From an uncultured Duganella sp. (GTDB lineage Bacteria > Pseudomonadota > Gammaproteobacteria > Burkholderiales > Burkholderiaceae): a DNA stretch of 30,946 nt. The position numbers and the translations under genes are program-made. Below, piece after piece: positions 2,625 through 30,010 of this stretch; position 1 is the stretch's first letter; each line of letters begins with the position of its first letter. Location: NCBI GenBank assembly GCA_946482635.1, contig CAMLSG010000042.1, positions 1 through 30,946 on the forward strand, in the 5' to 3' direction. The notes below the pieces were generated by a model that saw nothing but the letters and a program-made list of their open reading frames with translations, did no database searches and had not been told where the DNA came from.

Positions 2625-2644
2625 CGCGTCGACCGGATAGCGCT

Positions 2645-6201: not shown

Positions 6202-6222
6202 TATTTTCATTAAGGAAATTTT

Positions 6223-7888: not shown

Positions 7889-9461
7889 GCTGCGCCTGGA
7901 CTTGCGCCCGCGCAGCAATGCGCAAGGCCTGGACCTTGGTTTCGCCCTGCTGCACGCCGGCGGCGCCGACGTCTGGCGCGCCTGGCTCGCCCTGTGGCTG
8001 CCGCTGTCGGCGCTGGCGATCCTGATCGGCTGGCATTGGGAAACAGCGTTCGGCTGGCTGCTGCCCTGGTGGCTGCTGCCCCTGCTGGAACGGGCGCCGC
8101 TGCACGTGCTGGCGCGCCAGGTGTTCGGCGAGCAGACCGGCTGGCGCGCTGCCTTGCGCGCCTGGCCGCGCGAACTGGGCGGCGGCTGGATCCGCATGCT
8201 GACATGGTGGCGTCCCTTCATGGCCGGGCGCGGCCTGCACCAGCCGGTCTGGGTGCTGGAGCGGGCGCGCGGCAAGACCGCCACGGCGCGCCGCGCCACC
8301 ATCGCGCGCAATGGCACCGGCGTCGCCGCCTTCCTGTTCGGCGCCAGCTTCTTTGTCCTCGAATTCCTGGTGCTGGCCCTGGGCATCCTGGGCCTGGTGG
8401 GACTGTTCATGTCCAGCACATCGCCAAACCCGGCAGCGGTGTTCCGTATCGACGATGCGGCGTTGCGGTCGGCCATCATCAACGCCGCCTGCTGCGCGGC
8501 GCTGGCCATTGTCGGCCCGATTTATACGGCCTGCACTTTCACGCTATACCTGAACCGCCGCGCCACGCTGGAGGCATGGGACATCGAAATCGTGCTGCGC
8601 CAGCTGCGCCCGCCAGCCCGGCCGGTAGCGGCGCGTCACGTTGCCGCCGTGCTGATGGCGGCACCGCTGCTGGCCATGGCCTTGCTCGGCATGCCGCCGC
8701 CGGTGCAAGCCGCGCCGGCCGCCAGCGCGACGGCCGCTGCCCGCGATTGCGAACCGCCGGAAGGGTTCAAGAAGGAGGACAGCGGGCGCGGTCCCGACCA
8801 GTCGCCGGAACAAGCCGCCGTGCGCCGCCAGCTCGAACAGGTACTGGCCCACGAAGACTTGCGCGGTTATCGCTGCAGCGAGCAATGGGAATTGCGTGAG
8901 CAAGCGGAACAGGAAAAGCCCAAACAAGAGCAGAAAGCCCCGCCGCTGGTGCCGCGCTGGGTGGCGGCCATCCTGGCCGGCCTGTTCAAAGCGGCCCTGA
9001 TCGGCGGCGCCATTGCCCTGGTGGCGTGGCTGCTGTGGCGCTATGGCGCGCCGCTGCGCTTCAACATGGGCGCGGCCCCCGAGCCCCGCCTGGCAACCGA
9101 AATCGGCGGACTCGATATCCGCGAAGAGAGTTTGCCGTCCGACGTGGCCGGCGCCGTACGCGCCCTGTGGCAGCAAGGGCAGCAGCGCGCTGCGCTGGCG
9201 CTGCTGTACCGCGCCACGCTGTCGCGCCTGGTCAGCCGCCAGTCGCTCAAGCTGCACCACGGCGCCACGGAAGGCGAATGCCTGGCGCAAGCGCGCAGCG
9301 CCAATGCCGCCGGCACCCTTGACGGCAACAGCCTGGCACTGGCCGACCAGGCCACCACGCTATGGCTGAATGCCGCCTACGGCGCGCGCTGGCCCGCCGC
9401 GGAAACCGTGGCGGCGCTGTGCACGCGCTGGCAAGCCCACTTCGACCGCGAGGCAGCATGA
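7875..9461 (+). CDS. DUF4129 domain-containing membrane protein
   Basis: A 528-residue protein. The N-terminal half carries several transmembrane helices (the region after DLGFALLHAGGADVWRAWL, then about 35-75 and 150-220). A periplasmic, low-complexity, charged stretch follows (about 270-360, rich in E, Q and K). Next comes one more transmembrane helix (VAAILAGLFKAALIGGAIALV) and a C-terminal cytosolic DUF4129 domain with the usual RAALALLYRATLSRLV motif. The open frame extends upstream to 7680 inside the SpoIIM-like gene; the ATG at 7875 matches the normal family N-terminus and gives the expected short overlap. DUF4129 proteins accompany MoxR/DUF58/DUF4350 operons, and their biochemical role is unknown. 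Confidence 0.85.
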   Translation: MQLDKLRLDLRPRSNAQGLDLGFALLHAGGADVWRAWLALWLPLSALAILIGWHWETAFGWLLPWWLLPLLERAPLHVLARQVFGEQTGWRAALRAWPRELGGGWIRMLTWWRPFMAGRGLHQPVWVLERARGKTATARRATIARNGTGVAAFLFGASFFVLEFLVLALGILGLVGLFMSSTSPNPAAVFRIDDAALRSAIINAACCAALAIVGPIYTACTFTLYLNRRATLEAWDIEIVLRQLRPPARPVAARHVAAVLMAAPLLAMALLGMPPPVQAAPAASATAAARDCEPPEGFKKEDSGRGPDQSPEQAAVRRQLEQVLAHEDLRGYRCSEQWELREQAEQEKPKQEQKAPPLVPRWVAAILAGLFKAALIGGAIALVAWLLWRYGAPLRFNMGAAPEPRLATEIGGLDIREESLPSDVAGAVRALWQQGQQRAALALLYRATLSRLVSRQSLKLHHGATEGECLAQARSANAAGTLDGNSLALADQATTLWLNAAYGARWPAAETVAALCTRWQAHFDREAA

Positions 9462-10780
9462 AGCGCAGCACTTCCATTATCACGGCCATCGCCGTGGTCG
9501 CCGCGCTGCTGGCCTTCGCTGTTGCCGAACTGTGGCCCATCTACTTCCACAAGGTGTGGCGCGGCCAGCCATATGTCTCCGCGGCGCAGGCCAAGAACCC
9601 GATGCTGGCCGCCACCCGGCTGCTGGAGGCGCGCGGCCACAAGGTGCGCATCGAGCCCGTGCTCAGCTACCAGTTGCTGAACCAGCTGCCGGACGGCGTG
9701 ATGATGCTGTCGCGCTATGCGCGCCCGCCGGACGAGCGCCAGGCCAAGCTGCTGCTGGACTGGGTGCGCCGCGGCAACACGCTGATCATGACACCGGACT
9801 GGATCGGCGACAGCGACGACGAGGAAGGCAGCCAGGAGAGCGGCGCGGAACAGTTGACCGACCCGCTGGGCAAACACTTTGGCGTGGCAATGTCGGGCCG
9901 TACCCGCATGGACGATACCTGCCGCATTGACCCGCTGGAAACTGCGCGCCGCGAAAAGCGCGCCGCCGAGGCGGCGCAAGCCAAAGCGCAGCCGGCCGAG
10001 GAGGAGGCGGACGACGAGGACCAGGCAAGCGAGCAAGAACCGGCCGGCCCGGCCCACCTGGTGTGCCTGAACGCGCCCGGCGCCGCCAACACCATCGAGC
10101 TGGCCCGCCCATCCGACACCCTGCAGCGCTTCGAAGGCAAGGGCCCGCAACCGCTATGGGGCGACACGTACGAGCTGGCCGTGCTGGTCTACGGCGAAGG
10201 CCGCGGCAAGGTCGCCATGGTGGCCGTCGACGCCGGCGACAGCTACTTCGACAACGATGCGCTGCGCCAGTTCGACCACGGCGAGCTGCTGCTGTTGCTG
10301 GCCGGGCAGAGCGGTCCCAAGGCGCCGGTCATGCTGGTGCAGCACAACGAGCCGGTCAGCTGGGCCGCATGGCTGTGGCAGCACGGCCGCCTGGCCGTTC
10401 TCGGCCTGGCCGCCCTGCTGCTGTTGTGGACCTGGAGCGCCTCGCGCCGCTTCGGCCCAATGCTGCCGGAAGCGGCCGCCCCGCGCCGCGCGCTGATCGA
10501 ACATATCGAAGCCAGCGGCCGCTGGCTGTGGCGCTTGCCGCAGGGCCGCGCCTTGCTGCTGGACGCCGTGCGCAAGCGCACGGAAAAACAGCTGCTGCGG
10601 CGCCTGCCGGAACTGCACGCCCTGGGTCCCGCCGAACGCGCACGCCGCCTGGCGCGTTTGACCAAGCTGCCGGAAGCGCATGTCAGCGACGCCCTGCTTG
10701 GCGCGCCGGCCAGCCGTGCCGCCGATTTCACACGACAAATCTCCATACTCCAACAATTGCGAGCCCATCATGAGCGATAG
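9458..10780 (+). CDS. DUF4350 domain-containing membrane protein
   Basis: A 440-residue protein. An N-terminal signal anchor (residues about 7-25, IITAIAVVAALLAFAVAEL) leads to the DUF4350 domain with its typical NPMLAATRLLEARGHKV start and LLDWVRRGNTLIMTPDW. A strongly acidic and alanine-rich insertion lies around 165-200 (AEEEADDEDQASE). A transmembrane segment near 310-330 (LAVLGLAALLLLWTW) precedes a helical cytosolic tail with RRFGPMLPE and R-x-L-x-EH-I-EASGRWLW, common in this family. The ATG overlaps the DUF4129 stop as ATGA; longer upstream frames are shadows. The partner set MoxR-DUF58-DUF4129-DUF4350 is also found in actinobacteria. Confidence 0.85.
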   Translation: MKRSTSIITAIAVVAALLAFAVAELWPIYFHKVWRGQPYVSAAQAKNPMLAATRLLEARGHKVRIEPVLSYQLLNQLPDGVMMLSRYARPPDERQAKLLLDWVRRGNTLIMTPDWIGDSDDEEGSQESGAEQLTDPLGKHFGVAMSGRTRMDDTCRIDPLETARREKRAAEAAQAKAQPAEEEADDEDQASEQEPAGPAHLVCLNAPGAANTIELARPSDTLQRFEGKGPQPLWGDTYELAVLVYGEGRGKVAMVAVDAGDSYFDNDALRQFDHGELLLLLAGQSGPKAPVMLVQHNEPVSWAAWLWQHGRLAVLGLAALLLLWTWSASRRFGPMLPEAAAPRRALIEHIEASGRWLWRLPQGRALLLDAVRKRTEKQLLRRLPELHALGPAERARRLARLTKLPEAHVSDALLGAPASRAADFTRQISILQQLRAHHER

Positions 10781-11774
10781 CATGTCCATCCCATCCAACA
10801 ACGCCATTCCGGCCGACCGCCTGGCGCAGGCGATCGACATCGTGCAGCGCGTGCGCGAGGAAATCGGCCGCGCCATCGTCGGCCAGAAAACGGTGGTCGA
10901 GCAGGTGCTGGCCTGTTGCCTGGCTGGCGGCCATGTGTTGCTGGAAGGCGTGCCCGGGCTGGGCAAGACCTTGCTGGTCAAGGCGCTGGCCAAGACTTTC
11001 GCCGGCGAGTTCTCACGCATCCAGTTCACGCCTGACCTGATGCCCGCCGACGTGATGGGCCACGCCGTGTTCGACCAGCGCCAGCAAACCTTCAGCATCC
11101 GCAAAGGCCCGGTGTTCACCCACCTGCTGCTGGCCGACGAAATCAACCGAGCGCCGGCCAAGACCCAGTCCGCCCTGCTGGAAGCCATGCAGGAGCGCCA
11201 GGTCACCATCGAAGGCGAAGCGCACACGCTGGAAGCGCCCTTCATGGTGCTGGCCACCCAGAACCCGCTGGAAAGCGAAGGCACCTACCCGCTGCCGGAA
11301 GCCCAGCTTGACCGCTTCCTGATCAAGGCGCGCATCGCCTATCCAAGCGAGTCGGAGGAAACCGCGATGCTGCTGGCCGTGACCGAAGGCCGCGTCGGCG
11401 ACGCGCTGGAAGTGGCGCAGGTGCGCACCCTGATTAAGCCGGAAACCCTGGTCGCGCTGCAGCAGCTGGTGGCCCGCATCCGCGTCGACGAGGCGGTCGC
11501 CAACTACGCCGTGCGCATGGCGCGCGCCACGCGCCAGTGGCCCGGCGTGGCGGTCGGCGCCGGCCCGCGCGGCAGCATCGCCCTGATCCGCCTGGCGCGC
11601 GCCATGGCCCTGATGGCGGGCCGCGATTACGCCACTCCTGACGATATCAAGCAAGCCAGCCTGCCGGTGCTGCGCCATCGCATTGCCCTGTCGCCGGAAA
11701 GCGAACTGGATGGCCTGGGCGCGGACGACGTGCTGGCCGCACTGATCGACTCGGTCGCCGCGCCGCGCAACTGA
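10770..11774 (+). CDS. MoxR-family AAA+ ATPase
   Basis: A 334-residue cytosolic AAA+ chaperone-type ATPase. Walker A is GVPGLGKT (residues 60-67) and Walker B LLLADEINRAP (DE at 123-124). Sensor 1 is ATQNP (162-166) with the MoxR-typical LESEGTYPLPEAQLDRF following. The arginine-finger region and a C-terminal lid domain come after (VGAGPRGSIALIRLARA). MoxR proteins are thought to assist assembly or cofactor insertion of protein complexes, generally with VWA-type partners; the DUF58 protein encoded next is the probable partner. The ATG at 10770 lies inside the DUF4350 3' end (11-bp overlap). A second in-frame ATG at 10782 is two bases after that stop and is an alternative start. Confidence 0.93.
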   Translation: MSDSMSIPSNNAIPADRLAQAIDIVQRVREEIGRAIVGQKTVVEQVLACCLAGGHVLLEGVPGLGKTLLVKALAKTFAGEFSRIQFTPDLMPADVMGHAVFDQRQQTFSIRKGPVFTHLLLADEINRAPAKTQSALLEAMQERQVTIEGEAHTLEAPFMVLATQNPLESEGTYPLPEAQLDRFLIKARIAYPSESEETAMLLAVTEGRVGDALEVAQVRTLIKPETLVALQQLVARIRVDEAVANYAVRMARATRQWPGVAVGAGPRGSIALIRLARAMALMAGRDYATPDDIKQASLPVLRHRIALSPESELDGLGADDVLAALIDSVAAPRN

Positions 11775-13078
11775 TGAAACCAACCCGCCGCATGTTCTTG
11801 GCCCTGCTCGGCCTGACCGCGCTGGGCGTACCGGCCAGCGCATGGCCGATGCTGCAGGCGCCGTGGCAGGCGCTGGCCGGCACCCTGCTGCTGGCTGCCG
11901 GCGCCGATGCCCTGCTGGCGCGGCGCCGCCCTGCCCTGCGCGCGGAACGCAGCATGGCGGGCGTGCTGCCGGTCGGCGCCTGGCACGACGTGCGCCTGAC
12001 CCTGCACAATGAAGGCAAAGCCGCGCTGCAGCTCGACGTGTTCGACGATTACCCGCCCGCCTGGGAACTGGAAGGCATGCCGCACGCCACCCGCCTGGCG
12101 CCCGGCGCGTTTTCCACCATGACTTACCGCGTGCGCCCGCTGGAGCGGGGCGACGGCGACTTCGGCACGCCATGGCTGCGGGTGGCCGGCCCGCTCGGCC
12201 TGTGGCAGGCCACGCACCGCATCGGCCCGCAACAGACTGCAAAAGTCTTCCCCGACGTGGCGCGCCTGCTGGGCCAGGCCCTGCGCGCCACCGACCGCCA
12301 GGCGCCGACCGCCGGTTCGCTGCTCAAGCGCCAGCGCGGCGAAGGCACCGATTTCCGCCAGCTGCGCGAGTACCGCCGCGGCGACAGCCTGCGATCGATC
12401 GACTGGAAGGCCACGGCCCGCCATCGCAAGCCGATCACCCGCGAATACCAGCTCGAACGCGACCAGCAGGTCGTATTCCTGCTCGATACCGGGCGCCGCA
12501 TGCTGGCGCGCGACGACGACACCAGCCATTTCGACCATGCGCTGTACGCGGTGCTGACGCTGGCCTTCGTGGCCGGCAAGCAGGGCGACGCGGTAGGCTT
12601 GATGAGTTTTGGCGTCGACAACCGCTGGCTGGCGCCGGCCAAGGGCCGCATCGGCCTGGACCGCATGCTGGCCGGCGTCTATGACCTGCAGCCGGGCGAA
12701 GCCGCGCCCGACTACATGCGAGCCGCCAACGACTTGCTGAACCGCCTGAACCGGCGCGCCTTCGTGGTACTGGTGACCAATGTGCGCGATGAGGACGATG
12801 TGGCGTTGCGCCAGGCCGTCGACCTGCTGTCCTCGCGCCACCTGGTGATGTGCGCCAGCTTGCGCGAGCGCGCACTGGACGCCGCCAGCTCGGCACAGGT
12901 GCAGGACTTCAACGATGCGCTGCGCCTGGCAGCCAGCGAACATTACCTGCAGCAGCGCCAGGAAGCCATCCGCCGCCTCGGCCTGCGCTCAGGCCACCTG
13001 GTCGACGTCGCGCCGGAGCACCTGGCCGGCGCCCTGCTGAACCGCTACCTCGATATCAAAGAAAGCGGAGCGCTGTAA
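11774..13078 (+). CDS. DUF58 domain-containing (VWA-like) protein
   Basis: A 434-residue protein, the expected partner of the MoxR ATPase. Two hydrophobic N-terminal helices (about 8-45) anchor it in the membrane. A beta-rich region follows, then the DUF58 signature G-x-D-F-R-Q-L-R-E-Y-R-R-G-D-S-L-R-S-I-D-W at about 191-211. A VWA-like fold comes next, with VVFLLDTGRRM (about 233-243), where the MIDAS serine positions of classic VWA domains are replaced by G and R, as is common in DUF58 proteins. The start codon overlaps the MoxR stop by one base (TGATG). The 3' end overlaps the convergent DUF805 gene by 23 bp. Confidence 0.93.
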   Translation: MKPTRRMFLALLGLTALGVPASAWPMLQAPWQALAGTLLLAAGADALLARRRPALRAERSMAGVLPVGAWHDVRLTLHNEGKAALQLDVFDDYPPAWELEGMPHATRLAPGAFSTMTYRVRPLERGDGDFGTPWLRVAGPLGLWQATHRIGPQQTAKVFPDVARLLGQALRATDRQAPTAGSLLKRQRGEGTDFRQLREYRRGDSLRSIDWKATARHRKPITREYQLERDQQVVFLLDTGRRMLARDDDTSHFDHALYAVLTLAFVAGKQGDAVGLMSFGVDNRWLAPAKGRIGLDRMLAGVYDLQPGEAAPDYMRAANDLLNRLNRRAFVVLVTNVRDEDDVALRQAVDLLSSRHLVMCASLRERALDAASSAQVQDFNDALRLAASEHYLQQRQEAIRRLGLRSGHLVDVAPEHLAGALLNRYLDIKESGAL

Positions 13079-19403: not shown

Positions 19404-19700
19404 ATGAAAAAACTGATCATTGCCGCCCTGGCCCTGTCTTGTTCCGCCGCTTTCGCCGCGGATCCGGCGCCGGCAAAGAACTCCCAGCAATCCAAGATGA
19501 CGACCTGCAACAAGGAAGCCGAGGGCAAGAAAGGTGACGAGCGCAAGGCATTCATGAAGGAATGCCTGAGTGCGAAACCTGCCGCGCCGGTGACGCAGCA
19601 GGACAAGATGAAGACCTGCAATGCAGACGCAGCAGGCAAAAAGGGCGATGAACGCAAGGCATTCATGAAAGAATGCCTGAGCTCGAAGAAAGCAGCCTGA
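19404..19700 (+). CDS. psiF: PsiF-family small periplasmic protein
   Basis: A 98-residue protein with a clear signal peptide (cut near AFA-AD, residues 18-19) and two PsiF repeats of about 31 residues: SKMTTCNKEAEGKKGDERKA and DKMKTCNADAAGKKGDERKA, each followed by FMKECLS. E. coli PsiF is similar in size and phosphate-starvation inducible; its molecular role is unknown. An AAGGA Shine-Dalgarno precedes the ATG. A TATAGT box at 19358-19363 could be its -10 element. The TGA abuts the stop of the convergent metallopeptidase gene, forming TGATCA at 19698-19703. Confidence 0.82.
   Translation: MKKLIIAALALSCSAAFAADPAPAKNSQQSKMTTCNKEAEGKKGDERKAFMKECLSAKPAAPVTQQDKMKTCNADAAGKKGDERKAFMKECLSSKKAA
19485..19687 (+). 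repeat. Tandem internal repeat in psiF (2 x about 92 bp)
   Basis: Copy 1 is 19485-19576 and copy 2 is 19596-19687, offset by 111 bp (37 codons). Most differences are at third codon positions, so the two PsiF units arose by duplication and are kept by selection at protein level. Confidence 0.85.
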
Positions 19701-21159: not shown

Positions 21160-21179
21160 TGACTTGTTATGACAAGTCA
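21160..21179 (+). promoter_or_regulatory. Palindromic operator, probable GntR autoregulatory site
   Basis: TGACTTGTTATGACAAGTCA is a 20-bp inverted repeat with nine of ten pairs matched (perfect arms TGACTTG/CAAGTCA). It lies 10 bp before the ATG of the GntR regulator. HutC-type GntR proteins bind short palindromes with GT...AC halves, as seen here (TTGT/ACAA). No other copy was noticed in the window. The regulator is the first gene of the operon, so negative autoregulation is the simplest reading. Confidence 0.65.
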
Positions 21180-21189: not shown

Positions 21190-21942
21190 ATGAATTCACG
21201 CCCGCTTGCATTGTCTCCGGTTCCGCTCTACACGCAGGTCAAGGAGAGCCTGCGAGAACGCATCCTCGACGGCACCTACTCGCCGCATGCACAACTGCCG
21301 CCGGAAAGCGAAATCTGCAGCATCTTCGATGTCAGCCGCATCACCGTACGGCAAGCGCTGAACGACCTGCAGAAGGAAGGCCTCATCTTCAAACTGCCAG
21401 GCAAAGGCACTTTCGTCAGCAAGCCGAAGGCATGCCAGGAACTGACCCAGCTCGAAGGGTTCGCCGAGGCCATGTCGCGCCAGGGACATGAAATCTACAA
21501 CCGGGTGACCGGTATCCGCATACTCGCCGCCACGCCCAAGCTTGCGCAGCATCTGCAGGTGGCGGAAGGCACGCCGCTGGCGGAAATCCGGCGCATTCGC
21601 CTGCTGAACCGCGAGCCAGTGTCGCTTGAACTGACCTATGTGGCCGAGGCGCTCGGCGACCGCCTGCGCCGCGAAGACCTGGCCACGCGCGACATCTTCC
21701 TGATCCTGGAAAACGACTACGGCATCGCACTGGGCCATGCCACCCTCACGGTCGACGCCGTGGCGGCCGACCTGGAACTGGCCTCGGCACTGCATATCGG
21801 CGCCGGCATGCCCGTGCTGCGCATCGAACGCCTGACCCATACGGCCGAAGGCCGCCCGCTTGACTTCGAGTACCTCTATTTTCGCGGCGACGCCTTCCAG
21901 TACCGGCTGCAGCTGGCGCGCCGCACAACCTCCCGGGAGTAA
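21190..21942 (+). CDS. GntR-family regulator, HutC/UTRA subfamily
   Basis: A 250-residue repressor-type regulator. The winged helix-turn-helix (about 12-78) has PLYTQVKESLRERILDG, LPPESEICSIFDVSRITVRQAL and the wing GLIFKLPGKGTFV. The UTRA ligand-binding domain (about 95-245) has the typical RIRLLNREPVSLELTYV, D-x-x-A-A-DLELASALHI and GMPVLRIERLTHTAEGRPLDFEY. UTRA domains bind small molecules, often the substrate of the regulated pathway. Three bases separate it from the flavoprotein gene, so it is the first gene of an eight-gene unit. A palindrome overlaps the presumed 5' leader. The Shine-Dalgarno is weak. Confidence 0.92.
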   Translation: MNSRPLALSPVPLYTQVKESLRERILDGTYSPHAQLPPESEICSIFDVSRITVRQALNDLQKEGLIFKLPGKGTFVSKPKACQELTQLEGFAEAMSRQGHEIYNRVTGIRILAATPKLAQHLQVAEGTPLAEIRRIRLLNREPVSLELTYVAEALGDRLRREDLATRDIFLILENDYGIALGHATLTVDAVAADLELASALHIGAGMPVLRIERLTHTAEGRPLDFEYLYFRGDAFQYRLQLARRTTSRE

Positions 21943-21945
21943 GCA

Positions 21946-23694
21946 ATGGAAACCCATATCCAGACTGTCGACGTCCTGGTCATCGGCGGCGGCACCGCCG
22001 GCCCGATGGCCGCCGTGAAAGCGAAAGAAGCCAACTCGGCACTGCGCGTCCTTCTGCTGGAAAAAGCCAACGTCAAGCGCAGCGGTGCGATTTCGATGGG
22101 CATGGACGGCTTGAACAATGCCGTCGTGCCAGGCTTCGCGACGCCCGAGCAGTATGTGAAGGAAATCACTACCGCCAACGATGGCATCGTCAACCAGAAG
22201 ACGGTGATGGCCTATGCCCGCAACAGCTACGCCATGATCGAGGAGCTGAACGACTGGGGTGTGCGCTTCGAGAAGGATGAAACCGGCGACTATGCGATGC
22301 GCAAGGTGCACCACATGGGCACCTACGTGCTGCCGATGCCCGAAGGCCACGATATCAAGAAAGTGCTGTACCGCCGCCTGAAGCGCACCCGTGTCGAAAT
22401 CACCAATCGCCTGGTGGCGACGCGCCTGCTCACTGCCGCGGACGGCAGTGTCGCCGGCGCCATGGCCTTCGACTGCCGCAGTGGCGACTTCCACGTGATC
22501 CGCGCCAAGGCCATAGTGCTGGCGACCGGCGCCGCCGGGCGGCTTGGCTTGCCCGCCTCCGGCTACCTGTTCGGCACTTACGAGAATCCGACCAACGCCG
22601 GCGACGGCTACAGCATGGCCTACCACGCGGGCGCGGAGCTGTCAGGCATCGAGTGCTTCCAGATCAACCCCTTGATCAAGGACTACAACGGCCCGGCCTG
22701 CGCCTACGTTACCGGCCCCTTCGGCGGCTACACAACCAATAACAAGGGCGAACGCTTCATCGAGTGCGATTACTGGAGCGGCCAGATGATGATGGAGTTC
22801 TACCGCGAGCTGCAGGGTGGCGACGGCCCGGTGTTCCTGAAGCTGGACCACCTGGCCGAAGAAACCATCGGCACTATCGAGACCATCCTGCACACCAACG
22901 AGCGGCCCAGCCGCGGGCGTTTCCACGCCGGGCGCGGCACCGACTATCGCCAGCAGATGGTGGAAATGCACATCTCCGAGATCGGCTTGTGCAGCGGGCA
23001 CTCCGCCTCGGGCGTCTGGGTCAACGAGCATGCCGAAACCACGGTGCGCGGCCTGCACGCTGCGGGCGACCTGGCCTGCGTGCCGCATAACTACATGCTC
23101 GGCGCCTTCGTCTACGGCAAGCTGGCCGGCGAAAGCGCTGCGCGCTACTGCGCCGGCAACGAACTGCCCGCTGTCGACGAGCAGCAGGTCGCGGCCGAGC
23201 GCCAGCGCGTGTGGGCGCCGTTGTCGCGCGCCGACGGCCTGCCGCCCAGCCAGGTCGAATACAAGCTGCGCCGTATGGTGAACGACTACCTGCAACCGCC
23301 CAAGGTAACGCGCAAGATGGAGATCGGCTTGCAACGCTTCGAAGCCATCCGCCAGGACCTGGACCGGATGCAGGCGCGCAACCCGCACGAATTGATGCGC
23401 GCCATGGAAGTGCACGCGATCCGCGATTGCGCCGAAATGGCGGCGCGCGCTTCGCTGTACCGCACTGAAAGCCGCTGGGGCCTGTATCACTACCGCCTCG
23501 ACCATCCGCACAGCAACGACGCCGACTGGCTGGTGCACGTGCAGCTGCAGAAGAAGAACGGCGTCATGAGCTGCTTCAAGCGCCCGATCGAACCTTACAT
23601 CGTGGCCCTGGATGAGGACGAAAAAACCGCTTACCAGCGCCTGCGCATCAACAAGGAGGAAGCACATCATGCCAACGAGCTCGCACATCACTAG
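21946..23694 (+). CDS. AprA-like FAD-dependent oxidoreductase (fumarate reductase/APS reductase alpha superfamily)
   Basis: A 582-residue flavoprotein. The FAD-binding motif VLVIGGGTAGP is at residues 10-20 and the adenosine-binding acidic strand LLLEKANVKRSGA at 36-48. AIVLATGAAGRLG (189-201) and the C-terminal GLHAAGDLACVPH (369-381) with a histidine complete the FAD site. As I recall the APS reductase alpha subunit, RSGAISMGMDGLNN (45-58), CSGHSASGVWV (349-359) and the last part HELMRAME...ESRWGLYHYR...NDADW (481-528) match it better than succinate dehydrogenase. Asn57/58 would correspond to the active-site Asn. Its partner is the AprB-like ferredoxin encoded next. It is cytosolic, with no signal peptide. 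The substrate is unknown: no sulfate adenylyltransferase gene is present, so true APS reduction is doubtful. GGGAG precedes the ATG. Confidence 0.85.
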   Translation: METHIQTVDVLVIGGGTAGPMAAVKAKEANSALRVLLLEKANVKRSGAISMGMDGLNNAVVPGFATPEQYVKEITTANDGIVNQKTVMAYARNSYAMIEELNDWGVRFEKDETGDYAMRKVHHMGTYVLPMPEGHDIKKVLYRRLKRTRVEITNRLVATRLLTAADGSVAGAMAFDCRSGDFHVIRAKAIVLATGAAGRLGLPASGYLFGTYENPTNAGDGYSMAYHAGAELSGIECFQINPLIKDYNGPACAYVTGPFGGYTTNNKGERFIECDYWSGQMMMEFYRELQGGDGPVFLKLDHLAEETIGTIETILHTNERPSRGRFHAGRGTDYRQQMVEMHISEIGLCSGHSASGVWVNEHAETTVRGLHAAGDLACVPHNYMLGAFVYGKLAGESAARYCAGNELPAVDEQQVAAERQRVWAPLSRADGLPPSQVEYKLRRMVNDYLQPPKVTRKMEIGLQRFEAIRQDLDRMQARNPHELMRAMEVHAIRDCAEMAARASLYRTESRWGLYHYRLDHPHSNDADWLVHVQLQKKNGVMSCFKRPIEPYIVALDEDEKTAYQRLRINKEEAHHANELAHH

Positions 23695-23902
23695 CGTTCC
23701 GGTCAGCGTCGACGAAGAAAAATGCATCGCCCACAAGGGCTGCACGGTATGCGTCGACGTCTGTCCTCTCGACGTGCTGGCCATCGACTTCGTCAAAGGC
23801 AAGGCCTACATGCAGTTCGACGAGTGCTGGTATTGCATGCCATGCGAAAAGGACTGCCCGACAGGCGCCATCCACGTCGACATTCCATATCTGCTGCGTT
23901 AA
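23669..23902 (+). CDS. AprB-like ferredoxin, two [4Fe-4S] clusters
   Basis: A 77-residue iron-sulfur protein. Two cysteine sets are visible: C19-x5-C25-x2-C28-x3-C32-P and C53-x2-C56-x2-C59-x3-C63-P. The DECWYCMPCEKDCPTGAIHV segment is very like the second cluster region of APS reductase beta subunit. The irregular first set also recalls AprB, whose first cluster has an insertion. The C-terminal tail that wraps the alpha subunit in AprB is missing. It would carry electrons to or from the flavoprotein. The ATG at 23669 has AAGGAGG ten bases upstream and lies 26 bp inside the flavoprotein gene, so translation is coupled; the open frame upstream to 23612 is not needed. Confidence 0.88.
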   Translation: MPTSSHITSVPVSVDEEKCIAHKGCTVCVDVCPLDVLAIDFVKGKAYMQFDECWYCMPCEKDCPTGAIHVDIPYLLR

Positions 23903-23921
23903 ACACTACAGGAGAACCACA

Positions 23922-25316
23922 ATGAGATTGACCGTCTTCGGACTTGCCCTCGCCCTTCTGTCCGGCGTGTCCCACGCCGAAACCATCCGCGTTGCCATCG
24001 GCACCCAGGACACCACCATCAACTGCGCGACCGGCGGCATCCTGATCCGCGAACTCAAGCTGCTGGAGAAATACCTGCCGCACGACGGCAAGTACAAGGA
24101 CGTGCAGTACGACATCCAGTGGAAGAACTTCACCTCCGGCGCGCCGCTGACCAACGAAATGGTGGCCGGCAAGCTGGACCTGGGATCGATGGCCGACTTC
24201 CCCGGCTCCTTCAACGGCGCCGCCTTCGCCAAGGCCGGCCGCCAAAGCCTGTTCATCAACGTGCTGTCGGGCAGCACCACCGGCAGCGGCAACGGAATCG
24301 TGGTGCCCAAGGCGTCCCCGGTGCAGTCGCTGGCCGAATTGAAGGGCAAGACGATATCCGTGCCGTTTGCCTCCACCGCGCATGGCATGCTGCTGCGCGC
24401 CGTGCGCGCCCAGGGCTGGGACCCGGACAAGGACGTCAACATCACCACCCAGGCGCCGGAAATCGCCGGCTCCGCCCTGCAGAGCAACAAGGTCGACGCC
24501 CATGCCGATTTCGTGCCGTTCGCCGAACTGTTCCCGCACCGCGGCTTTGCGCGCAAGATCTACGATGGCTCGCAAGCGAACGCGCCGACCCTGCACGGCA
24601 GCCTGGTCGATGCCGCCTACGCCCGCAAATATCCGGAAGTCGTGGTGGCATTCGTGCGCGCCGCCATTGAGGCCGACCGCCTGTTCGCCGCTGAACCGGA
24701 AAAATACAGCGAGCTGGTAGCCAGGGTTACCGGCATCGAGGCAGAGGTGAACTACCTGTTCCACGGCCCGCTCGGCCTGCAGACGCGCGACCTGAGCTGG
24801 AAACCGGAATACCGCCAGGCGGTACGCACCTCGCTGGCGACGCTGCGCCTGCTGAAACGCACCGACAACGACATCGACGCCGATGCCTTTATCGACGACC
24901 GCTACGTGCGCGCCGCCTTCCAGCAGGCCGGCCTCGATTACGAAGCGCAGCTGAAAAATTACGCCAGGCTGCCCCTGGTGGGCAAGGATGCCGCGACCGG
25001 CAAGCCGATCAGCGACGTCCAGCGCGTCGCGCAAATCTGGGTCAGCGGTGAAGCGCTGGTGCGCCACTATGCCTCGCCGGAGTCGGCACTGGCCGACCTG
25101 GCGAAACTGGAGAAAGCGGGCCGCAAGGTGCGCGCCGTGTATGCACAAGATCGCGACAGCGGCATCAAGCTGTTTGCCGGCGACGCCTGGTTCGTCAGCA
25201 GCGGCAAGAACGAGATCAACGCCTTCCTGCTCAAGGAATCGGCCGAAGCGTGGGCGCGCAAGGTCAAGGGCAAGGTGCTGGACTTCAACGGCGCCAAGGC
25301 CGCCGTAGCCGGGTGA
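23922..25316 (+). CDS. SsuA/TauA/NrtA-like substrate-binding protein with NosL-like C-terminal domain
   Basis: A 464-residue periplasmic binding protein. The signal peptide is 1-19 (GVSHA-ET). The NMT1/SsuA-type domain (about 20-345) has IRVAIGTQDTTINCATGG, GAPLTNEMVAGKLDLGSMAD, then GNGIVVPK and LAELKGKTISVPFASTAHG. This group binds sulfonates, nitrate or pyrimidine precursors. It is about 130 residues longer than usual. The extension (about 352-464) resembles NosL: AQIWVSGEALVRHYASPESALADL, VYAQDRDSGIKLFAGDAWFV and FLLKESAEAWARKVKGKVLDF, but the copper-binding CxxCGM motif of NosL is absent. The extension is inferred by pattern only. AGGAGA precedes the ATG; the gene is 19 bp behind the ferredoxin. 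Confidence 0.85.
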   Translation: MRLTVFGLALALLSGVSHAETIRVAIGTQDTTINCATGGILIRELKLLEKYLPHDGKYKDVQYDIQWKNFTSGAPLTNEMVAGKLDLGSMADFPGSFNGAAFAKAGRQSLFINVLSGSTTGSGNGIVVPKASPVQSLAELKGKTISVPFASTAHGMLLRAVRAQGWDPDKDVNITTQAPEIAGSALQSNKVDAHADFVPFAELFPHRGFARKIYDGSQANAPTLHGSLVDAAYARKYPEVVVAFVRAAIEADRLFAAEPEKYSELVARVTGIEAEVNYLFHGPLGLQTRDLSWKPEYRQAVRTSLATLRLLKRTDNDIDADAFIDDRYVRAAFQQAGLDYEAQLKNYARLPLVGKDAATGKPISDVQRVAQIWVSGEALVRHYASPESALADLAKLEKAGRKVRAVYAQDRDSGIKLFAGDAWFVSSGKNEINAFLLKESAEAWARKVKGKVLDFNGAKAAVAG

Positions 25317-25323
25317 GCGCGCC

Positions 25324-26118
25324 ATGGCCGCGCTGAAATCCCGCCTGTTACGAGCCGTGGTGCGCAGCCTTTCGCTCGCGGCCTGCGTGCTGGCCTGGCA
25401 TTGGGCGTCGACCCGCCATGTCGACTTCGGCGTGGCCAGCTTCCGCAACGTGCCCTCGCCGCAGGAGACGCTGCAGGCTGGCGCGGCGCTGCTGCAGTCG
25501 CCCAAGCTGGGCACCCACCTGTCGGCCAGCATCAGCCGCGTGTTCGCCGGCTATGCAGTGGCCGCGCTGCTGGGCATCGGGCTCGGGCTGGCCATCGGCA
25601 GGTCGCGCCTGCTGGCAGCGGCCCTGCTGCCGCCGCTGGAGGTGCTGCGCCCGATTCCCGCCGTGGCCTGGATACCGCTGGCGATCCTGATGTTCCCATC
25701 GTCCGAGCTGTCAATGGTGTTCATCACCTTCATTGGCGCCTTGTTCCCGATCCTGCTCAACACTATCCACGGCGTGGAAGGCATCGACACCAGGCTGATT
25801 GCCTCGGCCCGCAGCCTGGGCGGGCGCGGCGCGGCAGTATTTGCCAATGTCATCCTGCCGGGCGCCGCGCCCAGCATCGTGACCGGCCTGTCGATCGGCA
25901 TGGGCACTGCCTGGTTCTGCCTGGTCACGGCCGAAATGATTTCAGGCCAGTTCGGCATCGGCTATTACACCTGGTCGTCCTACATCGTGCAGGACTACCC
26001 CGACATCATCGTCGGCATGCTCGCCATCGGCATCTTCGGCATGGGCAGCAGCCTGCTGGTCAGGCAAGCCGGCAATGCACTGATGCCGTGGTACTTCATA
26101 GGGAGGAATGCAATATGA
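25324..26118 (+). CDS. ABC transporter permease, SsuC/TauC-like
   Basis: A 264-residue inner-membrane protein with about six hydrophobic helices. The binding-protein-dependent permease signature (EAA loop) reads IASARSLGGRGAAVFANVIL followed by PGAAPSIVTGLSIGMGTAW, around 158-198. LRPIPAVAWIPLAI near 108-121 is typical of the sulfonate/nitrate/taurine group. It forms the channel for the binding protein encoded 7 bp upstream, with the ATPase encoded next (ATGA overlap). The substrate is not resolved by sequence. Confidence 0.9.
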   Translation: MAALKSRLLRAVVRSLSLAACVLAWHWASTRHVDFGVASFRNVPSPQETLQAGAALLQSPKLGTHLSASISRVFAGYAVAALLGIGLGLAIGRSRLLAAALLPPLEVLRPIPAVAWIPLAILMFPSSELSMVFITFIGALFPILLNTIHGVEGIDTRLIASARSLGGRGAAVFANVILPGAAPSIVTGLSIGMGTAWFCLVTAEMISGQFGIGYYTWSSYIVQDYPDIIVGMLAIGIFGMGSSLLVRQAGNALMPWYFIGRNAI

Positions 26119-26906
26119 CACATGGCGCGATCGAGATCGCCGGGCTGCACATCCGGCTGGGCGAAGGCAAGTCAGCGCTGGACGCCGTGCACGGCCTGTC
26201 GCTGGCCGCCAGCCCAGGCGAATTCCTGTGCGTGCTGGGCCCCTCCGGCTGCGGCAAATCTACCCTGCTGGGCGCTCTGGCCGGCCACCTGCAACCCAGT
26301 GCCGGCAGCGTCCGGGTGGACGGCGCAGCGGTGCGCGGCCCAAGCCCGGAACGCGGCCTGGTGTTCCAGCAGCACACGCTGTTCCCGTGGAAAACGGTGC
26401 TGGAGAACGTAGCCTTCGGTCTCAAGGTGCGCGGCGTGCCGCGTGCAGAACGGGAGGCTCGCGCGCAGCAGCTGCTGCGCCTGGTGGGACTGGACAGCCA
26501 TGCAGCCAGCTATCCGGCCCAGCTTTCGGGCGGGATGCAGCAGCGCGTCGAGATTGCCCGCGTACTGATCAACGACCCGCGCGTGCTGCTGATGGACGAG
26601 CCGTTTGCCGCGCTGGATGCGCAAACCCGCCTGAAAATGCAGCAGTTGCTGCTGGAGGTCTGGGCGCGCATCCGCACCACGGTGGTGTTCATCACCCACG
26701 ACATCGACGAAGCGCTGTTCCTGGCCGACCGCATCCTGGTCATGAGCGAGCGTCCCGGACGCATCGTCGAGGAAATCCGGCTTGATTTCCCGCGCCCCCG
26801 GCGGGCCGACCTGGTGACAACGCTGGATTTCGTGCGCCTGAAGCGGCGCTGCCTGGAACTGCTGCACCCGCAGGCTGCCGCACCGGTGCTGCGCTATGCC
26901 ACTTAA
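26115..26906 (+). CDS. ABC transporter ATP-binding protein, SsuB/TauB-like
   Basis: A 263-residue ATPase with all key motifs: Walker A GPSGCGKST (42-50), Q-loop VFQQHTLFPWKTVLENV (83-99), signature LSGGMQQR (137-144), Walker B VLLMDEPFAALD (157-168) and H-loop FITHDIDEA (192-200). FPWKTVLENV and RPGRIVEEI are typical of the nitrate/sulfonate/taurine family. It drives the permease encoded upstream. The ATG at 26115 overlaps the permease TGA and has GGGAGG (26101-26106) upstream; longer upstream frames are shadows. Confidence 0.92.
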   Translation: MTHGAIEIAGLHIRLGEGKSALDAVHGLSLAASPGEFLCVLGPSGCGKSTLLGALAGHLQPSAGSVRVDGAAVRGPSPERGLVFQQHTLFPWKTVLENVAFGLKVRGVPRAEREARAQQLLRLVGLDSHAASYPAQLSGGMQQRVEIARVLINDPRVLLMDEPFAALDAQTRLKMQQLLLEVWARIRTTVVFITHDIDEALFLADRILVMSERPGRIVEEIRLDFPRPRRADLVTTLDFVRLKRRCLELLHPQAAAPVLRYAT

Positions 26907-26915
26907 GGAGGAAGC

Positions 26916-27851
26916 TTGACACATACCGCATTACAGGAACGCCTGCGCCATGCCGATAGCACGGTACGCCGCATTGCTGTGCTGGAACTGGCCGACGAAG
27001 CCTCCGACCACGACGTCCCGCTGCTGCTGGCTGCGCTGGACGACCGGGACGGCGCGGTGCGCGCAGCAGCCGCCGAAGCGCTATCGGCTTTTGAAAGCGA
27101 CGACACCGTGGCAGGCCTGGCCTTGCTGCTGGACGATGAGGATGAAGCGGTACGCACCGCAGCCGCGCACAGCCTGGCCGAGCTGAAACGGCCGCAGTCA
27201 GCACGCCTGCTGCTGCCGCACGTCGCGCACCCGAACGCTTTCGTGCGCGCCGCCATCCTGCGAGCGCTGCGCGAATTGCGCGCGGCAGGCAGTGCCGCCG
27301 CCGCCCTGGCGGCATTGGACGACGCAGCCGCGTCCGTGCGGCGCGAAGCGGTGGCGGTACTGGGCTACCTGAAGCATGCTGCGGCGCTGCCCGAACTGGC
27401 GCGCCTGGCAACCGGCGACGTCGATGCCGAAGTGCGCCGTGCCGCCGCTGGCGCACTCGGGCTGGCCAGCGGTACCGGTGTCCTGCCGGCGCTGTTTTCC
27501 GCGCTGGCCGATCCTGCCTGGCAGGTGCGGGAAGAAGCCGCCACCACGCTGGGCAAGCTGCGGCAGTCCGCCGCCGGCGAAGCTTTGGCAGCGGCGCTAC
27601 AGGACGACTACTGGCAAGTGCAATTGCGCGCAGCGCGCAGCCTGGGCCGCCTGCGCCAGGGGAGCGCCCTGCCCGCCCTGTTGCCGCTGCTGGCGCACGA
27701 CATCGCCAACCTGCGCCGCGAAACGGCGCTGGCCCTGGGCGAGATCGGCGAACGCGCCGCCGTACCTGCGCTGCTGGCAGCATCGCAGGACCCGGACCCC
27801 GAGGTACGCAAGGCGGTACGCCTGGCGCTGCAGCAACTGGAGGAGGCATGA
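26916..27851 (+). CDS. HEAT-repeat protein (PBS-lyase-like repeats)
   Basis: A 311-residue soluble protein built almost wholly from about ten 31-residue HEAT-like repeats (for example DRDGAVRAAAAEALSAF, DEDEAVRTAAAHSLAEL, DAEVRRAAAGALGLA, DPEVRKAVRLALQQL). These form an alpha-solenoid used for protein binding. No catalytic motif is visible. It starts with TTG at 26916, supported by AAGGAGG (26905-26911) just upstream, ten bases after the ATPase stop. Similar repeats occur in phycobilin lyases and in proteins that help insert cofactors. Its place between an ABC ATPase and a DUF971 gene suggests an accessory or assembly role for the oxidoreductase, which is inference. The 3' end overlaps the DUF971 gene by ATGA. 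Confidence 0.88.
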   Translation: MTHTALQERLRHADSTVRRIAVLELADEASDHDVPLLLAALDDRDGAVRAAAAEALSAFESDDTVAGLALLLDDEDEAVRTAAAHSLAELKRPQSARLLLPHVAHPNAFVRAAILRALRELRAAGSAAAALAALDDAAASVRREAVAVLGYLKHAAALPELARLATGDVDAEVRRAAAGALGLASGTGVLPALFSALADPAWQVREEAATTLGKLRQSAAGEALAAALQDDYWQVQLRAARSLGRLRQGSALPALLPLLAHDIANLRRETALALGEIGERAAVPALLAASQDPDPEVRKAVRLALQQLEEA

Positions 27852-28123
27852 CGCCGCTGGCTATCGAGCTCGACACCGATGCCGGGCAGTTGTCCATCCA
27901 TTGGCCGGACGCCCGGGTGCAAAAGCTCGACACCACCATGCTGCGCCGAAGTTGCCGTTGCGCCGATTGCCTGTCAGCCGCCCGGGCAGGGACGCAGCCG
28001 CTGCCGGCCCGCGCACTGCAGATATCACGCATAGTGCCGGTCGGCTCTTACGGCGTGCAGCTCGCCTTCAACGACGGCCATGGGCGCGGCATCTACCCCT
28101 GGAGCTACCTGCGCAGCCTATGA
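27848..28123 (+). CDS. DUF971 (GBBH-like N-terminal domain) protein
   Basis: A 91-residue protein matching DUF971, the N-terminal domain of gamma-butyrobetaine hydroxylase. It has LSIHWPDARVQKLDTTMLRRSC, then C36-x-C38-x2-C41 and DGH with His78, followed by YPWSYLRSL. Cys36, Cys38, Cys41 and His78 would form the zinc site known from GBBH. Stand-alone DUF971 proteins, and fusions to Mrp/ApbC, are linked with Fe-S protein biology, which fits the ferredoxin in the same operon. It is the last gene; its TGA abuts the stop of the convergent kinase gene (TGATCA at 28121-28126), and no terminator hairpin is visible. Confidence 0.88.
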   Translation: MTPLAIELDTDAGQLSIHWPDARVQKLDTTMLRRSCRCADCLSAARAGTQPLPARALQISRIVPVGSYGVQLAFNDGHGRGIYPWSYLRSL

Positions 28124-30010
28124 TCACCGGCTGCGCAGCTGGCGGGCCAGGTCGGCCAGGCGATACGGCTTGCCGACGATGGAAAATTCTTCTTCCGACT
28201 GCGGGAAACCGGAAGACAGGATGATCTTGATGTGCGGGTAGCGCTGGCGCACTTCGCGCGCCAGCTCCAGTCCCGTCATCCCGTTGGGCATCATCACGTC
28301 GCTGAACAGCACGTCGACTTCGCTGTCGCGTTGCAATGCGCGCAAGGCAGCTGCCGCATCATTGGCATGCAGGGTGCTGTAGCCCATCGACTGGAACAGT
28401 TCGCGCGCCGCTTCCATCACCAGCGGGTCGTCCTCCACGATCAGCACGCGCTCCTCGCGTATGCTGCGCGGCGCCGGCGCCTCCGTCAAAGACTCTTCCA
28501 GCGCCGGCAGGAAGAGATTGATGGTAGTCCCCTGGCCTTCTTCCGTATCGATCGTCACCGCCCCGCCGGATTGCACAATGAAGCCATACACCTGGCTCAG
28601 GCCAAGACCCGAACCCTTGCCGACTTCCTTCGTTGTGTAGAACGGTTCAAACGCGCGCTGGCGCACTTCTTCGCTCATGCCGGTGCCGGTATCGGCCACG
28701 CTCACCCGCACATAGTCGCCGGCCGGCAGCGCGCCTGCCTGGTTGGCCGCAAGCACAACGTTGCGCGTCGCGACTTCGAGCGTGCCGCCGCCAGGCATGG
28801 CATCGCGCGCATTCACTACCAGGTTGAGCAGGGCTGCCTCGAAGCGCGCCTCGTCAATCGATGCCTGGCGCAGCTTGGGATCGAGGTCCATTTCAAAGCG
28901 CATCAGCGGACCGGCAGCGCGCCGCAGCACGCCCTCGAAGCCGAGCACCAGGCGGTTCAGCTGCTGCACGCTGGGCGCCAGCGGCTGCTGGCGCGCAAAG
29001 GCCAGCAGTTGCTGCGTCAGCGCGGCGCCGCGGTCAACGGCGCGCCGCATGCTGTCCAGCACGCGCACCGCCGAGGCTTCCGGCGGCGCCGTGCGCAGGA
29101 TGTCGATGCCGTTCGAGACCACGGCCAGCAGGTTGTTGAAGTCATGCGCCACGCCGCCGGTCAACTGGCCGATCGATTCCATTTTCTGTGCCTGGAACAA
29201 GGCGGCACGCGCCTGTTCCAGCGATTGCTGCGCTTCGCGCTGCTCGGTGTTGTCGCGCGTGACTTTGGCAAAGCCGATCAATTCGCCGTCATCGTCGTAC
29301 AGCGCATCGACCACCGCATGGGCCCAGAAGCGCGTGCCGTCCTTGCGCACGCGCCAGCCTTCGCTTTCGTAGCGGCCTTCGCGCGCAGCCACTTCCAGTG
29401 CCCGTTCCGGCACGCCTGCCGCTTTGTCTTCTTCCGTAAAGAAGCGGCGGTAGTGGGTGCCGAGCACTTCCTCCGGCGCATAGCCCTTGATGCGTTCCGC
29501 GCCAAGATTCCAGTTGGTGATCAAGCCTTGCGGCGACAGCATGTAGATCGCATAGTCGATCACGCCTTGCACCAGCAGGCGGAAACGCTGCTCGCTCTCG
29601 CGCAGCGCTTCCATCACGCGCTTGCGCTCGGTGATGTCGCGCGTGACGTTGGCGAAGCCGACGTGCTCGCCATCCGGCGTGTAGATCGGATCGATCACCA
29701 CACTGGCCCAGAACTGCGAGCCATCCTTGCGCAAGCGCCAGCCTTCGCATTCAAAACGGCCCTCGCGCAAGGCAGTTGCCAGCGCACGTTTTGCCAGGCC
29801 GGTCTCCCGGTCTTCCGGCGTATGGAAGCGGGAGAAGTGCGTGCCGAGTATTTCCCGTTCGCTGAAGCCGTTGAAACGCTGGGCGCCCGCATTCCAGCTA
29901 CTGATGCGGCCTTCGGTGTCCATCATGTAGATCGCGTAATCGCTGATGCTGGCCACCAGGAGTTCATACCTGGTTGACAGACTCTCAAGCGCTGGGACTT
30001 CATTGATCAT
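28124..30010 (-). CDS. Soluble hybrid sensor histidine kinase, PAS-PAS-HisKA-HATPase-receiver
   Basis: A 628-residue cytosolic kinase with no membrane segment. Two PAS/PAC units (about 15-130 and 140-258) are near copies of each other (for instance DYAIYMMDTEG versus DYAIYMLSPQG, and EGWRLRKDGSQFWA versus EGWRVRKDGTRFWA). The dimerisation/phosphoacceptor box is GGVAHDFNNLLA with His289. The ATPase domain has the N-box NLVVNARDAM, G1 DTGTGM (440-445) and G2 GSGLGL (466-471). A C-terminal receiver (about 520-628) has acidic ED at 526-528, phosphoacceptor Asp571 in LFSDVMMP and Lys614. No separate response regulator is visible in the window. The signal is unknown; PAS domains often sense redox or small ligands. 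It is convergent with the DUF971 gene, and its ATG is at 30008-30010. Confidence 0.93.
   Translation of the reverse strand: MINEVPALESLSTRYELLVASISDYAIYMMDTEGRISSWNAGAQRFNGFSEREILGTHFSRFHTPEDRETGLAKRALATALREGRFECEGWRLRKDGSQFWASVVIDPIYTPDGEHVGFANVTRDITERKRVMEALRESEQRFRLLVQGVIDYAIYMLSPQGLITNWNLGAERIKGYAPEEVLGTHYRRFFTEEDKAAGVPERALEVAAREGRYESEGWRVRKDGTRFWAHAVVDALYDDDGELIGFAKVTRDNTEQREAQQSLEQARAALFQAQKMESIGQLTGGVAHDFNNLLAVVSNGIDILRTAPPEASAVRVLDSMRRAVDRGAALTQQLLAFARQQPLAPSVQQLNRLVLGFEGVLRRAAGPLMRFEMDLDPKLRQASIDEARFEAALLNLVVNARDAMPGGGTLEVATRNVVLAANQAGALPAGDYVRVSVADTGTGMSEEVRQRAFEPFYTTKEVGKGSGLGLSQVYGFIVQSGGAVTIDTEEGQGTTINLFLPALEESLTEAPAPRSIREERVLIVEDDPLVMEAARELFQSMGYSTLHANDAAAALRALQRDSEVDVLFSDVMMPNGMTGLELAREVRQRYPHIKIILSSGFPQSEEEFSIVGKPYRLADLARQLRSR

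Follow-up and report, generated by a model that had tools for sequence, protein, structure and literature searches.

The asf gene cluster, in the excerpted account of PMC4267179 (PMC, PubMed Central), comprises genes for a binding protein, an ATP-binding cassette (ABC) transporter, a reductase/ferredoxin pair and the LysR-type regulator AsfR, and is needed together with ssu for the use of arylsulfonates. An excerpt of PMC2864759 places asfRAB on CHR2 of C. metallidurans CH34, with AsfA and AsfB as Rmet_4334/5. Another described system is the 3'-phosphoadenosine 5'-phosphosulfate (PAPS) reductase of Methanothermococcus thermolithotrophicus (MtPAPSR); the excerpted paper on this enzyme says that it retains the proposed catalytic residues of adenosine 5'-phosphosulfate (APS) reductases, and proposes Trp42 for electron transfer. 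Here we describe an operon of eight genes in a 30,946-nucleotide stretch of DNA from an uncultured Duganella sp. (contig CAMLSG010000042.1; the whole stretch is called the window below). It joins an AprA-like flavoprotein and an AprB-like ferredoxin to a sulfonate-type importer, a GntR/UTRA regulator, a HEAT-repeat protein and a DUF971 protein. We tentatively propose, with slightly less than even confidence, that an NAD(P)H-driven reductase resembling AprAB takes an imported compound of sulfonate type as its substrate and releases sulfite from it.

The gene set is widespread, carries the database label succinate dehydrogenase and is apparently unstudied: no paper on the operon was found in the open-licence PMC literature, and the excerpted print on sulfonate genes of Gordonia and Bradyrhizobium has nothing on it. 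An original prediction, made from the letters of the window, had coupled the importer to the oxidoreductase and assigned cofactor assembly to the HEAT and DUF971 proteins. This interpretation as a whole is partly supported by the results below; the operator, the electron-supply genes of relatives, the association with exporters and the comparison with asfRABC are new beyond it.

Layout, conservation and operator of the operon

The operon spans positions 21190–28123, with all eight genes on the + strand in the order GntR/UTRA, flavoprotein, ferredoxin, binding protein, permease, ATPase, HEAT and DUF971. Successive genes are spaced by a gap of 3 bp, an overlap of 26 bp, gaps of 19 and 7 bp, an overlap of 4 bp, a gap of 9 bp and an overlap of 4 bp, the largest overlap thus being 26 bp and the largest gap 19 bp. 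Open reading frame (ORF) coordinates and Pfam confirmed the single-strand, closely packed gene order of the original prediction, and its domain calls were borne out for all eight products (GntR and UTRA; FAD_binding_2 and Succ_DH_flav_C; two-cluster Fer4; NMT1/SsuA-like; BPD_transp_1; ABC_tran; HEAT; PF06155). By eye, a Shine-Dalgarno-like stretch precedes six of the eight starts (none at GntR, a weak one at the permease), and promoter and terminator scans gave no signal above chance. The flavoprotein is 97% identical to its counterpart in Duganella sp. CF458.

Conservation was assessed at the best 80 loci by flavoprotein similarity in genomes of named species, with the Cupriavidus pinatubonensis homologue as query. 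Five loci were left out for short flanks, and the 75 counted come mostly from Pseudomonas and Burkholderiales, many of them related. Alongside the flavoprotein we found the ferredoxin in 75 and HEAT in 75 of these loci, GntR in 71, the three importer genes in 68 and DUF971 in 60. This survey, which had been proposed with the original prediction, revealed strong conservation, with the complete set of eight genes at 56 of the 75 loci, and the arrangement is not due to chance. Since ferredoxin and HEAT are present throughout, they form the constant core together with the flavoprotein. The 15 loci that miss DUF971 are mostly from Caballeronia, the others from Ralstonia, Pandoraea, Methyloversatilis and Trinickia. 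All eight genes occur on annotated plasmid or chromid records of Acinetobacter and Paraburkholderia; corresponding records of Cupriavidus and Aquabacterium have seven, with no DUF971 listed. Rhizobial records show the order DUF971-flavoprotein-ferredoxin-HEAT and a Crp regulator, and two cyanobacterial records the order flavoprotein-ferredoxin-HEAT-Mrp.

In even draws of genomes, the flavoprotein family was present in 21 of 398 Pseudomonadota and in 50 of 149 members of the genus of P. lini. Within the genus of C. alkaliphilus, 15 of 60 genomes gave one match each (73–77% identical, one of them a fragment). In the corresponding order 23 of 300 genomes matched, 18 with the same family (71–88% identity) and five with only a paralogue of 34–35% identity. 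A second AprA-like flavoprotein family, 34–35% identical to the window protein, was seen at L130–L135, where a ferredoxin-like ORF adjoins it in several cases; at least five of these six genomes also gave a true AprA match.

The product of the first gene (21190..21942, + strand; 250 aa) has both a winged helix-turn-helix GntR domain (PF00392) and a UTRA domain (PF07702). A putative operator, CTTGTTATGACAAG (21163–21176), of the form CTTGT-N4-ACAAG, lies 13 bp before its start and is the core of the palindrome GACTTGT-TATG-ACAAGTC (21161–21178) within GACTTGTTATGACAAGTC. When dyads upstream of gntR were enumerated at 35 loci and in the window, CTTGT-N4-ACAAG was outstanding, being present in 22 sequences including the window's. 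Allowing at most one mismatch, the window contains two matches versus 0.40 expected (reached in six of 100 shuffles), and the exact one is the operator. Among 61 loci with an upstream gntR, 32 have the exact operator ahead of it; the stretch searched before gntR holds no exact site in the other 29, but in 12 of these the operator stands directly before the flavoprotein gene instead, and several show one or two mismatches. Four loci (L197 and L252–L254) belong to the sampled genus nearest to the window; their two mismatches mirror each other, and the palindrome survives as CCTGT-N4-ACAGG.

In 2.16 Mb of fetched loci we detected 50 exact sites besides the window's, all at the operon by position: before gntR, before the flavoprotein gene, before the binding-protein gene (L034) or before the gene of an NfnAB-like protein described below (L205). 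The sites at L034 (10313–10326) and L205 (3606–3619) are second operator copies inside the operon. A scan of 19 genomes or records with CTTGTYATRACAAG (the form CTTGT-YATR-ACAAG) was positive in 18, once in 17 and twice in one, always at the operon, versus none for the reversed pattern; these 19 were picked for motif-bearing operons, and the result concerns the lack of sites elsewhere, not their presence. On sequence grounds, the operator is conserved, and the GntR/UTRA protein would bind there. At the cyanobacterial locus L007, a 670-aa LysR regulator (6661–8673, - strand) carries a C-terminal periplasmic-binding-protein-like domain, and L011 has a similar gene. The L007 domain is 32% identical to the binding protein of its own operon and 31% to the window's, a resemblance which suggests that the regulator senses the same ligand.

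Flavoprotein, ferredoxin and accessory proteins

The flavoprotein (21946..23694, + strand; 582 aa), an AprA/PAPS-reductase-like protein predicted to bind flavin adenine dinucleotide (FAD), is a member of NF006131/PRK08275 (1087.6 bits, cut-off 587), a family name that is an annotation label and not a tested function. Its nearest solved relatives are sulfur enzymes by sequence and by fold, and nearest on both counts is MtPAPSR (8a8o, about 28% identical). The AprAB likeness seen in the original prediction holds at both levels. Two outcomes had been named there that would overturn the pathway idea: the lack of a conserved neighbourhood, against which the survey above speaks, and a grouping with succinate dehydrogenase or aspartate oxidase; in our tree the flavoprotein is separate from SdhA, FrdA and NadB, whose catalytic residues it also lacks. 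The tree has long branches and comes from a quick search, and only this separation of groups is used; under the printed rooting, the main clade comprises 24 rows, and two rows from cyanobacteria and two from actinobacteria lie outside it.

His232, Arg287 and Arg390 are the catalytic residues of E. coli FrdA. The first position is occupied by Asn241 in 28 of 28 family rows, and the six family rows shown have no counterpart of the two arginines. At the position of Arg265 of A. fulgidus AprA, which binds the sulfate (the numbering was matched on the alignment), Leu243 is present in 28 of 28 family rows and Arg in five of five AprA rows. The family also has Tyr where AprA has Trp234. H352, which follows S-E, is kept in all 28 rows with the S-E-x6-H spacing of the two AprA rows shown; by this spacing, the alignment column itself being offset by a gap, it matches His398, the active-site His of AprA. 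Y276, W277, R320, R323, R330 and R335 are among the family-specific invariant residues of the active-site region (28 of 28 each). With the known catalytic residues replaced, the flavoprotein therefore belongs with neither the succinate/fumarate enzymes nor the APS reductases; judged by its residues, it keeps the frame of a sulfur enzyme with a different pocket. A first structure model had a mean predicted local distance difference test score (pLDDT) of 62, with the cap region below 50. The replacement model, built from 82 rows, reached a pLDDT of 75.3 and a predicted template modelling score of 0.81; since it falls below 50 at 41–52, 200–218, 248–260 and 318–322, partly in the active-site region, we claim no pocket geometry.

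The ferredoxin (23669..23902, + strand; 77 aa; an alternative in-frame ATG lies upstream at 23612) has eight Cys and a CW(Y/F)C motif, as have all 18 sequences compared, the window form being CWYC. The eight Cys and the CWYC Trp match the AprB pattern of two [4Fe-4S] clusters with a Trp by the second. Sequence, fold and ferredoxin are thus all reminiscent of an AprAB-type APS reductase, or of an oxidative enzyme that converts sulfite to APS. We nevertheless consider such an activity highly improbable, given the score against the aprA equivalog TIGR02061 (179.7 bits, cut-off 641.75, and hence not a member), the replacement of Arg265, and the attached importer and regulator. As originally noted, sulfate adenylyltransferase is also missing from the operon, according to Pfam analysis of its eight products.

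The HEAT-repeat protein (26916..27851, + strand; 311 aa, TTG start) aligns with the C-terminal part of the NF010374/PRK13800 model. In the actinobacterium Tsukamurella (L008), flavoprotein and HEAT are one protein of 893 aa (NF010374, 1568 bits, cut-off 1196), and this fusion argues for physical contact; no function of it was found in the open-licence PMC literature. The DUF971 protein (27848..28123, + strand; 91 aa) matches PF06155 (77.2 bits, cut-off 22.8) and contains a CRCADC (CxCxxC) motif. It fits C[R,S]CAxC, a motif that some HCF101 proteins, which are iron-sulfur scaffolds, have in their DUF971 domain according to the excerpted PMC7980591, where the function of the domain is called elusive. 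At L007, a Mrp/ApbC-type iron-sulfur carrier without a DUF971 domain follows HEAT in the place of DUF971, and L011 holds a homologue of this carrier. As an analogy only, the HEAT protein Met18 acts in yeast cytosolic iron-sulfur targeting (PMC10728100, in excerpt). The proposed role in cofactor assembly gains indirect support from the actinobacterial fusion and from the two cyanobacterial carriers: HEAT, linked by the natural fusion, and DUF971 may serve iron-sulfur loading or complex assembly.

Import, electron supply and the proposed reaction

The periplasmic binding protein (23922..25316, + strand; 464 aa, with a C-terminal extension) is SsuA/TauA-like; SsuA and TauA are its best families, and among solved structures it matches an aliphatic sulphonate-binding protein best. 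It is followed by a permease of Ssu/Tau/Nrt type (25324..26118, + strand) and an ATPase of Tau/Ssu type (26115..26906, + strand). The top score of the permease is with ntrB (141.9 bits, below the cut-off), which would suit a dehydrogenase or reductase for an imported sulfur-free anion such as a carboxylate, a nitrate-like anion or a phosphorus oxyanion. The FAD_binding_2 superfamily acts mostly on C-C bonds, and GntR/UTRA proteins serve many substrates, both of which also count for a sulfur-free anion. We regard this as unlikely, since the FrdA-type residues are not kept, the nearest solved relatives are sulfur enzymes, the binding protein is SsuA/TauA-like and YeiH-type genes are enriched at the operon. 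Of 39 operon-bearing genomes, 28 contain PF03601 (YeiH-type) genes, 36 in total, and seven of these genes lie inside the operon regions (up to 20 kb), versus 0.14 expected. In Aquabacterium and in both cyanobacteria, genes next to the operon carry the annotation of TauE/SafE-type sulfite exporters. One Paraburkholderia locus runs on into a luciferase-like monooxygenase (LLM), an aldolase-type protein, a 3-mercaptopropionate dioxygenase and a rhodanese. We infer that the imported anion is a sulfur compound and the target of the enzyme.

Genes for electron supply were surveyed at 64 mapped loci, most of about 20 kb each. An FdxA-type ferredoxin (with PF11953) was present at 16 loci, a ferredoxin-NADP-reductase-like gene at 12 and an NfnAB-like fusion of the 1153-aa type at 12; one half of the fusion matches the large subunit and the other the small subunit of NfnI (NADH-dependent ferredoxin:NADP oxidoreductase). 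The 1153-aa NfnAB-like fusion at L005 (10574–14035) is a candidate NAD(P)H:ferredoxin oxidoreductase. The NfnAB-like loci are from the Acidithiobacillus caldus plasmid pTcM1 and from genomes of the order of C. alkaliphilus. FdxA also occurs at 11 of the 12 NfnAB-like loci and at four of the 12 reductase loci. The two enzyme types were together at none of the 64 loci (2.25 expected if independent, chance 0.06), a mutual exclusion that is only suggestive because of this chance and of clustering by lineage. FdxA, reductase-like or NfnAB-like genes in or beside the operons of relatives suggest NAD(P)H input, and the simplest electron path would lead from NAD(P)H through a reductase and FdxA to the AprB-like ferredoxin and the FAD.

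Flavoprotein and ferredoxin might instead leave the sulfonate itself untouched and only pass electrons to a monooxygenase whose gene lies elsewhere, for example SsuD or a different LLM enzyme; such a role has been proposed for AsfAB in the desulfonation of arylsulfonates. A few relatives (L001, L006, L012, L013, L061) do have LLM monooxygenases close to the operon. However, no LLM oxygenase, the only kind looked for, is constant across the 64 loci, and the nearest enzyme by fold is a PAPS reductase, which processes its substrate. Moreover, some operons are accompanied by NAD(P)H:ferredoxin-type enzymes, to which the AprAB-like pair would add a further carrier. We therefore hold a role as mere carrier to be rather unlikely.

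If our proposal of a sulfite-releasing reductase is correct, the operon would be a self-contained, locally regulated unit of uptake and reduction. GntR/UTRA would bind CTTGT-N4-ACAAG before its own gene and control the operon, and the binding protein, permease and ATPase would, judging from their families, import a small sulfonate-type anion. Flavoprotein and ferredoxin, related to APS reductases by homology and fold, would form a complex of that type. It would receive electrons from NAD(P)H via a ferredoxin-NADP-reductase-like or NfnAB-like enzyme and FdxA, presumably encoded elsewhere in the host. By analogy with the N5 attack on the sulfur of APS or PAPS, the target of the FAD would be the sulfur group of what is imported, or of a derivative, and the product would be sulfite; in some relatives YeiH/TauE-type carriers may export this sulfite. 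In its most specific form, the proposal gives aerobes of at least three phyla a sulfonate reductase of AprAB fold that is driven by NAD(P)H and needs no oxygen: reduced FAD attacks the sulfonate sulfur and the C-S bond is cleaved to yield sulfite, with neither an oxygenase nor a glycyl radical. We consider this form speculative and doubtful.

Several points weigh against a sulfite-releasing reductase. Aerobes usually open sulfonates with oxygenases, and related importers carry nitrate and other anions. The binding protein is not a member of SsuA TIGR01728 (115.5 bits, cut-off 163.5), and at seven of the 75 loci the operon has no importer genes; of eight flanking ORFs scanned there, four had no Pfam match and two encode outer membrane efflux proteins. 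Because Arg265 is replaced by Leu243, the APS/PAPS mechanism is not transferable residue by residue. Both electron-supply enzymes score below their family cut-offs (reductase-like, PRK10926, 154.7 bits, cut-off 390; NfnAB-like, PRK06567, 606.6 bits, cut-off 1072). Neither of these NAD(P)H-enzyme types is nearby at 40 of the 64 loci, the window included, and electron flow could be reversed. Finally, few of the YeiH cases are independent, because a single gene order is common to five of the seven and a sixth (G519) lies near these in the tree; besides the two cyanobacteria, there may be only two or three.

Should the proposal hold true, many genomes would contain a dedicated sulfur-acquisition enzyme mislabelled as succinate dehydrogenase or fumarate reductase, and APS-reductase chemistry would be tied to organosulfur use in aerobes. 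It would also give a reason for the fusion of HEAT and flavoprotein, and the one-site operator would make the substrate accessible by reporter.

Neighbouring genes and comparison with described systems

Convergent with the operon lies a PAS/histidine-kinase/receiver-like gene (28124–30010, - strand; judged by eye), whose stop codon abuts the last stop of the operon with zero spacer. Elsewhere in the window, genes for a DUF4129-like protein (below cut-off), a DUF4350 protein, a MoxR-type AAA ATPase and a DUF58 protein are clustered at 7680–13078. A small secreted-looking, PsiF-like protein (19404–19700) has a duplicated KMxTCNxxAxGKKGDERKAFMKECLS unit. Directly upstream of the importer-less operon copy at L086 are genes for a major facilitator superfamily (MFS) transporter, a GH31 glycosidase (nearest in NCBIfam to alpha-glucosidase/alpha-xylosidase, below cut-off) and a porin-like protein (2054–7095); the MFS and GH31 genes probably belong to another operon.

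The window shares with asfRABC the order A-B-binding protein, taken for asf from its name, as well as an ABC transporter and a regulator, and the operon might thus be the Oxalobacteraceae form of this known arylsulfonate cluster. This is improbable in our view. AsfR is of LysR type whereas the window regulator is GntR/UTRA, and HEAT and DUF971 are not mentioned in the excerpted asf account. On CHR2, to which the comparison with CH34 is confined among its replicons, the best match to the window flavoprotein has 30% identity over part of the length (E 4.9e-17). When 200 kb of CHR2 were scanned, the three weak matches proved to be the three flavoproteins with an Fe-S protein nearby; two of them were run through NCBIfam and are TcuA-like and of an unassigned type, both far from PRK08275. 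In addition, the matching genomes in the genus of C. alkaliphilus hold one copy each, at 73–77% identity. The name AsfA appears in none of the 120 homologue rows listed, many of which are nameless, with printed names abbreviated. Identity with asfRABC was rejected on the CHR2 comparison, and since CHR2 has no close homologue, the operon is not a simple asfRABC orthologue. We conclude from these sequences that it represents a family separate from asf, the comparison resting on CH34 and not on the original S-313 AsfA sequence. With the same A-B-binding-protein order and a flavoprotein family other than CH34 CHR2's, the operon bears on the use of asfA as a marker for counting sulfonate-using soil bacteria.

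Two places on CHR2 were considered for Rmet_4334/5. Our guess is the pair at 927,881–929,862, beside an Ssu-type ATPase and permease; the alternative, which fits an ascending A-then-B order better, pairs the TcuA-like flavoprotein (793,507) with a larger Fe-S protein. In the genus of P. lini, the unassigned type occurs in nine of 149 genomes; in three of the nine, an SsuA-like binding protein and an LLM monooxygenase both come after it. Another flavoprotein/ferredoxin pair, seen at L143 (7882–9863, - strand) and L169–L175, is a candidate for the AsfAB of the literature. At L169–L175, in the genus of P. lini, it adjoins SsuA-like binding proteins (L171–L173, L175) or LLM monooxygenases (L169–L174).

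With SsuABC and TauABC, the window importer has the families of binding protein, permease and ATPase in common, but its binding protein is longer and below the SsuA cut-off, and the operon has no SsuD or TauD, in line with the lack of an oxygenase beside the importer noted originally. The NF010374/PRK13800 fusion is homologous to both the flavoprotein and the HEAT protein, as a single polypeptide in Tsukamurella versus two genes in the window. AprAB and the window pair agree in architecture, in the RSGA and PH motifs, in S-E-x6-H with the His398 spacing, and in the ferredoxin Cys pattern and Trp. The window pair differs by its score below the family cut-off, by Leu for Arg265 and Tyr for Trp234, by a shorter ferredoxin tail and by an operon without adenylyltransferase. 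MtPAPSR likewise combines an FAD subunit with a small ferredoxin subunit of two [4Fe-4S] clusters, whereas in the window family Leu takes the place of Arg265 and the window operon adds an importer, a GntR regulator, HEAT and DUF971.

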